Positions 3,985-44,463 of a stretch of DNA of 44,463 nt are shown piece by piece (the stretch's first letter is position 1; the number at the start of each line of letters is the position of its first letter). The notes beneath the pieces were generated by a model. That model had not been told where the DNA came from, did not search any database, and saw only the letters and a list, made by a program, of their open reading frames with translations. The stretch is taken from positions 1-44,463 of the IMG/VR virus record IMGVR_UViG_3300025289_000048; one strand, given 5' to 3'. A program made the translations under genes and the position numbers. The DNA is from a virus.

Positions 3985-4541
3985 GATTTGCCATAGTCGA
4001 TCTAGAGTGCACCGCCCTCAAGAGCGACCAAGGGTTTCTGCTGTGCGGCGGCATCAAAGAGTTGGGCGGCAAGGCGAAGGTGGTTGGACTGCACACGGCA
4101 GGGTTTGAGAACGGGCGGTTGCACATCGACAAGAAGCTGGCGCTGGCGCTGCGCGAGGCCATCGAGGCGTATGACGGGCTCATCACCTGGAACGGCATCA
4201 TGTTCGACGTGCCGTTTCTGAACGATAGGTTGACACTGGCAGGCGAGAACCCGCTGGAGAAGCGGTTTCACGTAGACATCATGTATCAGGCGCGGATGGG
4301 AAAGTCGGCGCTAACGTCGAGCCGGCTGGACTGGGTGAGCAAGGCGCTTGGCGTCGCGTCGCGCAAGACGGCGCTGGACCTGAACACCTGGAAGGAGGCT
4401 GAGGCGGAGGCGCTGGCGCACTTTGCGAATGGAAGGAAGAATTACGATTATATTGTGGAGCATTGTGAAAAGGATTTGCTCGTTACAGAACAAGTATACG
4501 AGCGTCTGAAAAATCGCGTGCAGCAGATCAGCAAGCGGTAA
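3981..4541 (+). CDS. DEDD-type 3'-5' exonuclease (RNase H fold), 186 aa
   Basis: The start is taken at 3981 because it forms an ATGA overlap with the previous stop; a longer frame to 3960 lacks support. FAIVDLECTAL (residues 3-13) gives the DxE of motif Exo I, ITWNGIMFDVPFLNDRL matches Exo II with its Asp, and YIVEHCEKDLLVTEQVY resembles Exo III with the closing Asp. The protein should degrade DNA or RNA from the 3' end using two metal ions. It may serve phage replication or recombination, although its neighbours are lysis genes. Confidence 0.75.
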   Translation: MRFAIVDLECTALKSDQGFLLCGGIKELGGKAKVVGLHTAGFENGRLHIDKKLALALREAIEAYDGLITWNGIMFDVPFLNDRLTLAGENPLEKRFHVDIMYQARMGKSALTSSRLDWVSKALGVASRKTALDLNTWKEAEAEALAHFANGRKNYDYIVEHCEKDLLVTEQVYERLKNRVQQISKR

Positions 4542-5192: not shown

Positions 5193-5456
5193 ATGCCTGA
5201 CTACCGCGAAACCATCGTTCGCATCGACCACGACGCCAAATTGGCGCAGGTGTGGACGCAGGACAGGACTATCATCAAGCGACTCAAGCAGTTGGAGCGC
5301 GAAGGCGCCCGCCCGCTGGAGCGTCAAATCCGCGGCGAGTGGTGGGAGGTGCCCATCCGGCTAGGGGCACGCGGTTTTCTTCTTGGAAATCGACGTAACA
5401 AGCGTGGTTTTAGACCAAAGAAGGCCCTCCACGTCTCACCCGGCACCGGAGCATGA
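5193..5456 (+). CDS. Hypothetical phage protein, 87 aa
   Basis: The chosen start (MPDYRETIVRIDHD) is the first Met before the conserved-looking part; the frame is open back to 5148. The protein has ETIVRIDHDAKLAQVWTQDRTIIKRL and GEWWEVPIRLGARG, a pattern I recall in small phage proteins of unknown function. It ends in an ATGA overlap with the GIY-YIG-like gene. The preceding 80 bases (5112-5192) hold nothing I can support. Confidence 0.6.
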   Translation: MPDYRETIVRIDHDAKLAQVWTQDRTIIKRLKQLEREGARPLERQIRGEWWEVPIRLGARGFLLGNRRNKRGFRPKKALHVSPGTGA

Positions 5457-5965
5457 GCATAAAAGTCTGCCGGTGTACGCATCGCAAGGAAAGCCATCTC
5501 GTAGTGGACACGTATAGGGTTAACTGCAAGGAGTGCGACTGCGCCCGCTATTCCTTGCATGAGGAATTCATTCGGCCGTACTCCAAGACAGTCATTGGCG
5601 CGTACAGGTCAGACATAACCATCAATCATCTCGCGCGATGCGGCATTAGCCAAAAAATTGCATGCCTATATGCCGTATCGGTGCCAATCGCCGGCGTTGT
5701 GCGCATTGGCAAAACAGTCAACCTGGTTTATCGTTGGGCTTCCAGACTATCGGAGTGGCCAAGCCTTCCTGACCTCCGACTGATCGCCGCGATCCCGAAT
5801 GCACAAAAACACGAAGATGCTGTGCATGAATATTTCTCCGACCTGCGCATACGCAGCGAGTGGTTTAGTTATCACCAGGACATCGAGGCGCTCGGTTCAT
5901 GCAAAACCGAGAGTGACCTACTGAACCTGCTAAAGACGCCGCGAAAACAGAACGGCCGATCCTGA
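5453..5965 (+). CDS. GIY-YIG-like nuclease domain protein with N-terminal Cys cluster, 170 aa
   Basis: Residues about 77-140 resemble the T5orf172/GIY-YIG fold: CLYAVSVPIAGVVRIGKTVNLVYRW, then LRLIAAIPNAQKHEDAVHEYF with the catalytic-type Glu, and IRSEWF. The canonical GIY is degraded to LYAVS with GVVRIGKT. The N-terminus (CRCTHRKESH, later CKECDC) could bind zinc. Family members are nucleases, often in mobile or phage genes. Base composition is lower in GC than its neighbours, suggesting recent arrival. Confidence 0.65.
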   Translation: MSIKVCRCTHRKESHLVVDTYRVNCKECDCARYSLHEEFIRPYSKTVIGAYRSDITINHLARCGISQKIACLYAVSVPIAGVVRIGKTVNLVYRWASRLSEWPSLPDLRLIAAIPNAQKHEDAVHEYFSDLRIRSEWFSYHQDIEALGSCKTESDLLNLLKTPRKQNGRS

Positions 5966-6121: not shown

Positions 6122-6150
6122 TTGACATCGTTGCTGCGCTATGGTATCGT
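6122..6150 (+). promoter_or_regulatory. Sigma-70-like promoter for the 6352 gene
   Basis: A perfect TTGACA (6122-6127), a 17-base spacer and TATCGT (6145-6150) make a strong candidate. RNA would start near 6157, immediately ahead of the GGCNN array, which therefore lies in the 5' untranslated region of the gene at 6352. Confidence 0.65.
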
Positions 6151-6161
6151 GTTGATTGTCG

Positions 6162-6266
6162 GGGCGCGGCCCGGCACGGCTAGGCCGGGCGAGGCGTGGC
6201 CCGGCGTGGCTAGGCCCGGCACGGCTAGGCCGGGCGTGGCGTGGCAAGGCGGGGCAAGGCAAGGCT
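6162..6266 (+). repeat. GGCNN pentanucleotide array, 21 units
   Basis: There are twenty-one uninterrupted 5-base units of the form N-GGC-N with GGC in strict register while the other two bases vary. A 45-base sub-block is partly repeated (CGGCACGGCTAGGCCGGGCG occurs twice). Period five means no reading frame is maintained, so this is not coding. It lies between the promoter at 6122 and the ATG at 6352. Confidence 0.95.
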
Positions 6267-6351
6267 ACTTCAACTAAACGCGACAGGCGGCCAGAGCGCA
6301 TTAGCGTGTTAGCGCGAGAGCCGGTGAGTCGCAAAAGAAAGGGGCCAGAGC

Positions 6352-6915
6352 ATGAGCAGCGTGGTCATCGAAGTGGAATTGAAGGGCGTGGCGCCGCTTC
6401 TCCAACACAACATTGACGGCGGCGAGGAGCAGATGCTCAACAAGGGCAAGCGCAAGTCGTCCGGCGTCTGCAACGACGAGGAGGAGTGGAAACGCTACCT
6501 CTATCGCATTCAGGGCAACGGCAAGTTGGGGCATCCGTCTGCGGCGCTTGAGTCGGCTTTTGTCAAGGCGGCGCGCGACTTCAAGGCCGACAAGCGGCGC
6601 ACGATGGCCGAGATTGCCAAAGCCGCCTTCTTTTGCAACGAAACCTACATTGAGTTGACGGGCAAGACGACGCCGGATCGCATCAACCGTTCGTCGGTGG
6701 TGAATCCCAATACCCGCGGGCGGGGTTTCCGCTATCGGCCAGAGTTTGACGCCGGATGGGTCGGCAGGATTGCGATTACATTGGCCGATCTCGATCTATT
6801 GCCTGAGGCAAAGGCGAAGGAGATCATCGAACATGCCGGGCGCGTCGTTGGTATCGGGAACTGGCGTCCGAAGTTTGGGCGGTTCATTGTGACGAAGTGG
6901 AAGGCGGCGAAGTAG
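6352..6915 (+). CDS. Conserved phage protein with VGIGNWRP motif, 187 aa
   Basis: It resembles a phage protein group that I recall having an N-terminal beta strand (VVIEVELKGVAPLLQH), a helix rich in Lys, a segment picking out Ala-rich LESAFVKAARDF, then VVNPNTRGRGFRYRPEF and a C-terminal AGRVVGIGNWRPKFGRFIV. The function is not known to me; a nucleic-acid-binding fold would fit but is inference. The start follows AAAGAAAGGGG. The gene stands alone on its transcript, with GGCNN arrays in both its 5' and 3' untranslated regions. Confidence 0.75.
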   Translation: MSSVVIEVELKGVAPLLQHNIDGGEEQMLNKGKRKSSGVCNDEEEWKRYLYRIQGNGKLGHPSAALESAFVKAARDFKADKRRTMAEIAKAAFFCNETYIELTGKTTPDRINRSSVVNPNTRGRGFRYRPEFDAGWVGRIAITLADLDLLPEAKAKEIIEHAGRVVGIGNWRPKFGRFIVTKWKAAK

Positions 6916-6920
6916 TCTAG

Positions 6921-7065
6921 CGGCACGGCGGGGCAGGGCTTGGTTAGGCATGGCGTGGCGGGGCAAGGCTTGGCGGGGCGCGGCACGGCGGGGCGCGGCG
7001 AGGCGCGGCGGGGCGCGGCACGGCGCGGCAAGGCGAGGCAGGGCAAGTCTAGGCAAGGCAAGGCG
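6921..7065 (+). repeat. GGCNN pentanucleotide array, 29 units
   Basis: The array starts five bases after the stop codon of the 6352 gene. Twenty-nine units in one register follow, with two decayed (TGGTT at 6941, AGTCT at 7046). It has the same strand and motif as the array at 6162. It fills exactly the space between this gene and the end of the convergent virion operon at 7067, where an ordinary terminator would be expected and none is visible. Confidence 0.95.
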
Positions 7066-7066
7066 A

Positions 7067-7264
7067 TTATCGTCGATACGCTGCTGCCGCGCCTCCGCCG
7101 GCTGCCGCCGCCCATACGCCAATCACCACCGTACTAAGCGTCGAACCGTCTATCCAGCCACCGACGCGCAACGCCATCGTTGCCGCGACAATCAGCAACG
7201 CGCCACCAACGTAGCCTTCGCTTTTACCAAGCCGCTCAATTAACCCTATAAGTGTCTCGTTCAA
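7067..7264 (-). CDS. Small membrane protein at the end of the virion operon, 65 aa
   Basis: The start is taken as TTG at 7264 because GGGGAGG lies just upstream; the ATG at 7300 has no ribosome site. Two hydrophobic stretches are visible, YVGGALLIVAATMALRVGGW and STVVIGVWAAAAGGGAAAA. It overlaps the previous gene by 29 bases. A holin-like or virion membrane role is possible, but no family is recognised. Confidence 0.55.
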   Translation of the reverse strand: MNETLIGLIERLGKSEGYVGGALLIVAATMALRVGGWIDGSTLSTVVIGVWAAAAGGGAAAAYRR

Positions 7265-41055: not shown

Positions 41056-42359
41056 ATGGCCTGGCTCTATGTGCCGGGGTTGGCGGACTCGAACTTGGAC
41101 TCCGGCTCGCCGTCGGAGACGCCTACCGCACCGTGGGTTACGTTGAGCGGGAAGCCTTCGCAGCGGCCGTTCTCGTGGCGCGGATGGAGGACGAGGCGCT
41201 GGATCGAGCGCCTATATGGGACGATGTTGCGACCTTCGATGGCGCAGCGTGGCGCGGAGTCGTGGATATCGTCTCTGCGGGATACCCGTGCCAACCGTTC
41301 AGCGTCGCAGGACAGCGGCGCGGAGCAGGAGACGAGCGGCACCTCTGGCCCCACATCGCTCGCATCATCCGCGAGTGCGAACCCGTACAAGTGTTCTTGG
41401 AGAACGTCGGCGGACACCTCCGGCTTGGCTTTCGGGAAGTTGCAGAGGAGTTACGAGGAATGGGCTACGACGTTGCGGCGGGTTTGTTTACGGCGGAGGA
41501 GGTTGGTGCGCCGCACCGAAGAGAGCGATTATTTGCGCTGGCCCGCAAGTTGTGCCACCGACTGGAAGAACTCAATGCCGTTGCATCGAATTGGCGGGAG
41601 GCTTCTGGCACACGAAGCGAGACTCTGGCCGAGCGTCCGAGTGGGCGTTCACGGCGAACCGAGTGCGGGGGCACGGCATCCGAGGATTCAGGATTGGGTG
41701 ACGCCGCAGCAGCACGACGGAATGGCTGGCCCGACGCCGCCGAGGCGCGTAGGTCGCTACGGCACGAAGCACGGCGGGAGGGACTTGGTGGATCAGGCGC
41801 AGACTTGGCTAACACCGAACGTCCCGAACGGCGGTCGCAGCGTGCCGGAAGCGACGGTACTGGCGAAAGGACAGACGAAGACCGGCAAACGCACAGTTGG
41901 TCTGGAATCTCAGACGCGAGTTTGGGCAACGCCGACGCAACGCGACTGGAAGGACGGCGGAGACCCATCGGTGAACGTACCGACGAACTCCTTGCTTGGC
42001 CGCCGGGCCCCGCGCAGCATGACGAATGGACCGGAATCCTCGCCCATTGGCCGCATTTGCAGCCAGCCATCAGCATCGAAGAAGCAGAACGGGCCGGACT
42101 CAGGATACCAACTAGGTTCGCGTCTCGTTGCGCGGAGACTCAACCCCCTGTTCGTCGAGTGGCTGATGGGCCTTCCAATCGGGTGGACCGACTCCGCGCC
42201 TGTGGCAACGGCGTCGTTCCAATCGTGGCTGCATACGCATACCGAACTCTTATGGAGGCTTTGCGCCAAGATTGGCCTGCGGGAGATGGCGGAGGAGGAG
42301 GCTTGACAACCGCACACGAAGCACCTATATTGCTGGCGCGACGATGGAGGATGCGATGA
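41052..42359 (+). CDS. DNA cytosine-C5 methyltransferase, 435 aa
   Basis: ALCAGVGGLELGL (5-17) is motif I, SAGYPCQPFSVAG (75-87) is motif IV with the catalytic Cys80, VFLENVGG (114-121) motif VI, APHRRERLFALA (153-164) motif VIII, and DRLRACGNGVVPIVAAYA (about 379-396) motifs IX-X. It should methylate cytosine in a specific site, with the 165-375 region as target recognition. ATG shares a GGAGGA site with the ATG at 41056 of the overlapping frame. It ends in an ATGA overlap with the AAA gene. Confidence 0.92.
   Translation: MNGLALCAGVGGLELGLRLAVGDAYRTVGYVEREAFAAAVLVARMEDEALDRAPIWDDVATFDGAAWRGVVDIVSAGYPCQPFSVAGQRRGAGDERHLWPHIARIIRECEPVQVFLENVGGHLRLGFREVAEELRGMGYDVAAGLFTAEEVGAPHRRERLFALARKLCHRLEELNAVASNWREASGTRSETLAERPSGRSRRTECGGTASEDSGLGDAAAARRNGWPDAAEARRSLRHEARREGLGGSGADLANTERPERRSQRAGSDGTGERTDEDRQTHSWSGISDASLGNADATRLEGRRRPIGERTDELLAWPPGPAQHDEWTGILAHWPHLQPAISIEEAERAGLRIPTRFASRCAETQPPVRRVADGPSNRVDRLRACGNGVVPIVAAYAYRTLMEALRQDWPAGDGGGGGLTTAHEAPILLARRWRMR
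41056..42306 (+). CDS. Overlapping +1-frame protein inside the cytosine methyltransferase gene, 416 aa
   Basis: This frame is open for 416 codons and starts four bases after the methyltransferase ATG. The first half is simply the shifted reading of the methyltransferase and may be passive. The second half has motifs that I know from phage methyltransferase-associated sequences: DWVTP (214), WLTPNVPNGGR (251-261), WATPTQRDWKDGGD (290-303) and RLNPLFVEWLMGLPIGWTD (361-379). Whether the frame is translated alone or by frameshift is unknown. Confidence 0.55.
   Translation: MAWLYVPGLADSNLDSGSPSETPTAPWVTLSGKPSQRPFSWRGWRTRRWIERLYGTMLRPSMAQRGAESWISSLRDTRANRSASQDSGAEQETSGTSGPTSLASSASANPYKCSWRTSADTSGLAFGKLQRSYEEWATTLRRVCLRRRRLVRRTEESDYLRWPASCATDWKNSMPLHRIGGRLLAHEARLWPSVRVGVHGEPSAGARHPRIQDWVTPQQHDGMAGPTPPRRVGRYGTKHGGRDLVDQAQTWLTPNVPNGGRSVPEATVLAKGQTKTGKRTVGLESQTRVWATPTQRDWKDGGDPSVNVPTNSLLGRRAPRSMTNGPESSPIGRICSQPSASKKQNGPDSGYQLGSRLVARRLNPLFVEWLMGLPIGWTDSAPVATASFQSWLHTHTELLWRLCAKIGLREMAEEEA
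42303..42331 (+). promoter_or_regulatory. Consensus-like promoter for the replication-side operon
   Basis: TTGACA (42303-42308), 17 bases and TATATT (42326-42331), inside the end of the methyltransferase gene and exactly overlapping the stop of the +1 frame. RNA would start near 42338, followed by GGAGG at 42345-42349 and the ATG at 42356. Confidence 0.75.
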
Positions 42360-44080: not shown

Positions 44081-44463
44081 GTTGACGCCGGAGCAAGAGG
44101 CACGACTCGGCGAGTGGCGCGACAAGTGGATCAAGATAGGGTTGTGCTGTGAGCCGGCGGACAGAAAGCTGGCCGAGGCGGCACTGGCAGCCTGCTACCG
44201 GCATACGAAACTGGAGCCACCGAAAGCGTATGTGTGGGTGCAGTCGCCGCTTACGCTAGCGTATGCGGGACCGACAGCAGCGATGATTGTTGATGGTAAA
44301 CATGCGGTGAGCGGCGCGGTGAGCGGCGCGGTGAGCGGCGCGGTGCACGGCGCGGTGGACGGCGCGGTGCACAGCGCGGTGAGCGGCGCGGTGAGCGACG
44401 CGGTGGGCGGCGCGGTGAGCGACGCGGTGGACGGCGCGGTGGGCGGCGCGGTGGGCGGCGCGG
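44061..44463 (+). CDS. DUF6745-type protein, N-terminal part (partial; continues at 1)
   Basis: MPKRIDKLTPEQEARLGEWRDKWIKIGLCCEPADRKLAEAALAACYRHTKLEPPKAYVWVQSPL is the usual N-terminus of DUF6745 proteins as I know them (two helices, the EPADR motif, then the W-SPL segment). The repeat array starts at residue 84. The frame runs through the end of the window and matches the frame open at base 2 once the 53-base overlap is removed. Confidence 0.85.
   Translation, partial: MPKRIDKLTPEQEARLGEWRDKWIKIGLCCEPADRKLAEAALAACYRHTKLEPPKAYVWVQSPLTLAYAGPTAAMIVDGKHAVSGAVSGAVSGAVHGAVDGAVHSAVSGAVSDAVGGAVSDAVDGAVGGAVGGA
44310..44463 (+). repeat. Start of the x-x-Ala-Val coding repeat
   Basis: Units here read SGAV three times, then HGAV, DGAV, HSAV, SGAV, SDAV, GGAV and into the terminal overlap. 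The composition rules are as at 8-463. Bases 44387-44463 match 289-365 exactly, so the array could be joined to the other end at more than one unit. Confidence 0.93.
44411..44463. repeat. 53-base terminal overlap identical to bases 1-53
   Basis: The last 53 bases repeat the first 53 exactly and in the same direction, the mark of a circular assembly or a short terminal redundancy. Because both copies lie in the 12-bp repeat, the match is not independent proof of a circle. Confidence 0.9.

Follow-up and report, generated by a model that had tools for sequence, protein, structure and literature searches.

What is the function of two arrays of GGCNN pentanucleotides that stand on either side of a small viral gene? 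The arrays lie in a window of 44,463 bases (the whole stretch of DNA that was analyzed), which was taken from an IMG/VR virus record, and they enclose an open reading frame (ORF) coding for 187 residues.

A search of the literature on such systems found a single description, a preprint in which the Viral Interference Programmable Repeat (VIPR) systems were first described in April 2026 (PMC13142463). VIPR was described as RNA-guided DNA recognition with guides that pair non-contiguously, and it may predate CRISPR. Vipr, a small RAMP protein, binds vrRNAs in which GGY alternates with NN; in the systems tested, the NN pairs recognize double-stranded DNA and pass over a single target base in each unit, usually the codon wobble, and the complex represses transcription, the inferred targets being mostly competing phages and prophages (PMC13142463). 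For relatives of the system considered here, the preprint demonstrates binding to RNA and to DNA, the skip of one base, and silencing. The vrRNAs of the SUSP1 and P. fulva clades were reported to have 9–16 repeats and a structured 3' tail, and a vap (vipr-accessory) gene typically adjoins vipr, with seven types and six vap genes counted (PMC13142463). The window is filed here as a VIPR locus because both of the defining parts, a Vipr and GGY/NN arrays, are present.

Two GGCNN arrays and their surroundings

The original prediction had described a promoter at 6122 leading into 21 strict GGCNN units, a 187-residue gene, and 29 further units ending two bases from a convergent operon. The features collected in Table 1 bear out this description; the 3' array, although it stays in register over its whole length, is not quite strictly GGC. 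The final GGC stops at 7064 and the TAA of the minus-strand ORF occupies 7067–7069. With maximum-segment scores for a five-base GGY run of 21 (5' array) and 27.3 (3' array), as compared to a maximum of 4.3 among 60 first-order shuffles of the window, the arrays are far beyond chance. A weak internal duplication of nine units was seen in the 5' array (five matches at lag 9, p = 0.04); such a repetition would fit either an array that has grown by duplication or a pair of guides that overlap.

Table 1. Features of the locus and their positions in the window
Feature	Start	End	Strand	Description
Promoter for upstream vrRNA (predicted)	6122	6150	+	Sigma-70-like TTGACA-17-TATCGT, extended -10 (TG)
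5' repeat tract (probable vrRNA)	6163	6265	+	21 GGC units, perfect period 5; NN = GC CC AC TA CG GA GT CC GT TA CC AC TA CG GT GT AA GG AA AA
Possible 3' tail of upstream vrRNA (putative)	6266	6345	+	GCGAC...GTCGC stem-loop
vipr gene	6352	6915	+	187-aa RAMP-fold protein, C-terminal glycine-rich loop GIGNWRPKFGRF
3' repeat tract (probable vrRNA)	6922	7064	+	29 units in register: 27 GGC, 1 GGT, 1 GTC; NN = AC GG AG TT TA AT GT GG AA TT GG GC AC GG GC GA GC GG GC AC GC AA GA AG AA TA AA AA
Neighbor, last ORF of convergent operon	7067	7300	-	77 aa, hydrophobic stretch; bounds locus

The promoter matches the consensus at 10 of 12 positions, with a perfect TTGACA, whereas shuffles of the region average 0.3 such sites; its geometry places the predicted start at about 6157, some 5 nt ahead of the first repeat. 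Folding of the putative tail gave -23.2 kcal/mol (z -0.6; a longer span, z -1.45), which is not significant, and a comparison by eye showed nothing resembling it in L121, the related locus discussed below. No transcription terminator was found at the arrays, and Rfam matched no known RNA family in the window or in 16 loci.

Directly upstream of the promoter, positions 5453–5965 (+) code for a protein with a T5orf172/MUG113-like domain, possibly an accessory nuclease or the product of an unrelated early gene. The portal protein of the phage gave a remote match only. The first 53 bases of the window are identical to its last 53 (regions 1–463 and 44304–44463), and this identity falls within a 12-base minisatellite coding for AVxG/AVxD tetrapeptides; the contig seems to be complete or circularly permuted, its ends interrupting a long gene of tetrapeptide repeats.

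A RAMP-fold protein and its arrays across viruses

The window protein matched PHROG 4652 (E = 4e-17), the one PHROG matched by 79 of 80 family members and a group whose function is not known; Pfam and NCBIfam hold no model for the family, and no Pfam match was obtained among its members. The family profile gave one strong PDB match, 36pp ('SUSP1 Vipr protein', E = 1.7e-41), and the window protein alone matched the same entry across the glycine-rich loop region (E = 3.6e-5). The motif conserved in the Vipr family, G...GIG.WRP..GRF, is also found in the window. An AlphaFold model, for which the family alignment served as input, reached a pLDDT of 91.4, and the solved structures closest to it, at a Z of about 13 across ~165 residues, are the Csm3/Cas7 subunits found in CRISPR complexes of types III and VII. 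Profile and model point to a single-domain RAMP homolog, Vipr, with a glycine-rich loop.

The protein thus resembles the RAMPs of class 1 CRISPR systems (Csm3/Cas7) in its RRM-like RAMP fold and its glycine-rich loop, and it is predicted to share with them the role of a backbone protein that oligomerizes on a guide RNA. Unlike a class 1 CRISPR locus, the window has no Cas protein among its scanned ORFs and no CRISPR-type repeat in its tandem-repeat scan, the repeats of the locus being the period-5 GGC arrays; furthermore, a VIPR guide has a built-in five-base repeat and pairs non-contiguously with DNA.

A pattern scan identified arrays of ten consecutive GGCNN units in at least 119 viral contigs, which range from 39 to 76% GC and in which every array of a locus is on the same strand. 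Their spacers are mostly non-repeating, with repeats of an identical unit at a few loci (L051, L056, L093 and L094). The ORFs flanked by two arrays have in common an N-terminal G..PL(L/M).(H/D) and a C-terminal G...G(I/L/V)G.(F/W/Y)RP...(G)RF. A family HMM seeded with the C-terminal motif was used to search 11,463 ORFs; the arrays were masked, since open frames reading through them contaminate an unmasked profile. The converged profile comprised 90 ORFs in 89 of the 121 loci (the window and L121 included), all but one of them on the array strand. An array was located within 300 nt of 74 members, and 31 had arrays on both sides. The 32 array loci without a Vipr match include some identical-unit repeats, while others are cut by contig ends or are unexplained. 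Arrays and an accessory-type gene were seen in L046, L101 and L111, with no Vipr ORF in the stretch examined; these loci may be cut contigs or orphan guide arrays.

The converse search, beside homologs of the gene, was also run. Six homologs were picked by protein similarity alone, namely L121 (61% identical), the Gordonia phages Pipp, Ecliptus and Trine, phage DSL-LC04, and the Pseudomonas phage Medea1; the SUSP1 locus was retrieved using its own protein. GGY-NN arrays adjoin the gene in all six and in SUSP1, and no array was present on the opposite strand, in line with the expectation of the original prediction that arrays and gene are linked. Homologs lacking arrays, which the original prediction had named as its refutation, did not turn up in this search.

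The NN code, a proposed mechanism and its alternatives

When the 2,497 NN dinucleotides of the 289 arrays were compared with reference compositions, the best fit was to sense-strand codon positions 1+2 (KL 0.085 bits), with poorer fits to general dinucleotides (0.125 bits) and to the other codon registers (0.15–0.35), a support that is one of composition and identifies no targets. Each of the two arrays of the window was again best fitted by codon positions 1+2. A residual shortage of C at the first position is not explained by the codon fit. In the collected loci (89 loci, 289 arrays) the NN resemble the first two positions of codons, which supports the reported code.

Searches for targets with exact one-base-skip patterns of 8–11 consecutive NN in IMG/VR and GTDB genomes returned either nothing or chance matches; the four matches to a core of eight NN were attributed to chance and rejected, as they do not extend (25–27 of 56 bases). 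A mismatch-tolerant search found no self target in the window, and peptides decoded from the arrays had no match in phage records. In an all-against-all comparison of array windows from the collected loci, a skip of one base yielded 18 windows with at least 15 of 16 bases and other skips yielded 6–7; this mild excess, obtained without a shuffled control, is too weak to be taken as target evidence.

The window is, very probably, a VIPR locus in which the 187-aa Vipr reads vrRNA arrays to silence a gene of a competing phage or prophage. The mechanism that we propose has the following steps: (i) transcription of the 5' array from the promoter at 6122 would yield a non-coding vrRNA that serves as a guide, and the vipr transcript would bear a second vrRNA in the 3' array, (ii) copies of Vipr would bind the vrRNA, probably with one subunit per five-base unit, gripping the GGC and presenting each NN, (iii) the exposed NN would base-pair with double-stranded DNA, one target base, usually the codon wobble, being skipped per unit, and (iv) the DNA-bound Vipr-vrRNA complex would block transcription of the competing phage or prophage gene. 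For this phage, we infer VIPR activity, guide boundaries and processing by analogy with the relatives; expression of the system, its subunit stoichiometry and its target are likewise presumed.

The two GGCNN arrays are most likely guide RNAs, a term that is to be preferred over the untranslated-region elements of the original prediction because the NN constitute the guide in the VIPR systems described. For the same reason, only half of the claim that selection holds the spacing and leaves the spacer sequence free can be upheld: the spacing is kept, but the NN would be anything but free. The suggestion that a repeat-reading protein is involved, with the gene product as the reader, is very probably right, as indicated by the homology to the SUSP1 Vipr.

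TRAP, the trp RNA-binding attenuation protein, binds RNA triplets separated by two-base spacers that carry no information. A similar autoregulation, in which the protein would bind the GGC of its own mRNA leader and trailer and control translation or stability with uninformative NN, would have the same geometry as TRAP on NAGNN, and the arrays do flank the gene with both in transcript orientation. However, the likeness to TRAP is a functional one confined to the triplet with two-base spacing; the fold differs, being that of a RAMP with a solved Vipr relative and with no TRAP ring, the NN have the composition of codons and not that of the genome, many arrays of the relatives are found downstream of other genes, and a guide function has been demonstrated for relatives (PMC13142463), all of which make autoregulation of this type quite improbable. 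Even less credence can be given to a DNA-level recombination or annealing site, at which the arrays would serve for loading or exchange by an annealing protein with five-nucleotide steps. The period of five would suit such a site, and some relatives do sit among early replication genes, as the locus of Trine does, but the family adjacent to the arrays is a RAMP and not RecT, Erf or Sak, the NN are hypervariable from one locus to the next, a property for which a fixed exchange site has no use, and a separate Sak4-like annealing gene of the same phage lies far away at 42272. Neutral microsatellite expansion, or a terminator between convergent operons, may be dismissed despite the GC-rich DNA and the location of the 3' array between convergent genes, given that the spacers are not copies of a single unit, that the arrays keep to the vipr strand over the whole GC range, that no terminator was found at the arrays and the 5' array comes after the promoter, and that the reciprocal linkage of gene and array contradicts it. 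Nothing was found in support of the terminator, recombination or packaging roles that had been among the first suggestions.

Array ends and the place of the locus among VIPR systems

Several observations concern the ends of arrays at other loci. Of 396 array ends, 7 are followed within 90 nt by a tRNA-like T-arm (GGTTCGANYCC), where about 0.4 would be expected; they belong to L012 (after oriented positions 4391 and 4548), L066 (after 1472, 1606 and 1745), and L075 and L125, the last two being one phage (Gordonia phage Trine). Two tails of L012 look like an acceptor stem, a mini-hairpin and a T-arm, with stems that differ yet are complementary, and this suggests that the 3' end of the guide RNA is processed like that of a tRNA. 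T-arm tails are not mentioned in the main text of PMC13142463. Near-identical structured tails also follow arrays; they are repeated inside L002 and are common to L013, L020, L028, L061 and L091. In 123 terminal arrays of the collected loci the last three NN are biased to AA (32%, 24% and 16%, versus 7% in mid-array), hence the terminal units may form an invariant end and not part of the guide.

The window and L121 pair off in a tree of 83 Viprs (support 100/99), isolated on a long stem and apart from the clade containing SUSP1 and one accessory-gene family; a second clade, which holds a different accessory family, is likewise separate from the pair. The window protein is about 20–31% identical to all relatives except L121, and the array spacers of the window differ from those of L121. 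The two recurring downstream accessory families of the collected loci had no match in either member of the pair. No other gene common to the two was detected within the 6.5 kb of L121; thus, phages seem to exchange the module.

Comparison with the VIPR of SUSP1 (type II, PDB 36pp; L127 in our collection) revealed a homologous RAMP-fold Vipr, GGY/NN arrays on both sides of vipr and on the same strand, and a dedicated upstream vrRNA, which for the window is predicted. In contrast to the four ~100-nt vrRNAs of SUSP1, the window has two long arrays of 21 and 29 consecutive units, more than the reported 9–16; neither the downstream accessory gene nor the conserved pseudoknot tail of SUSP1 was recognized in the window, and in the tree its Vipr branches far from the clade of SUSP1. 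One could go further and regard the window and L121 as a separate VIPR lineage, accessory-free and minimal, outside the described types, with long guides of 20–28 NN pairs or overlapping guides in one tract; we put this forward tentatively, and consider it rather unlikely.

VIPR itself had been described shortly before this analysis. The Vipr locus of the window, found independently, is a further example that adds a divergent member to these systems, and the 89 loci with their 289 arrays support the reported VIPR code from sequence alone. Since the locus appears to be minimal, it offers a good case for what a lone Vipr and its guide can do.
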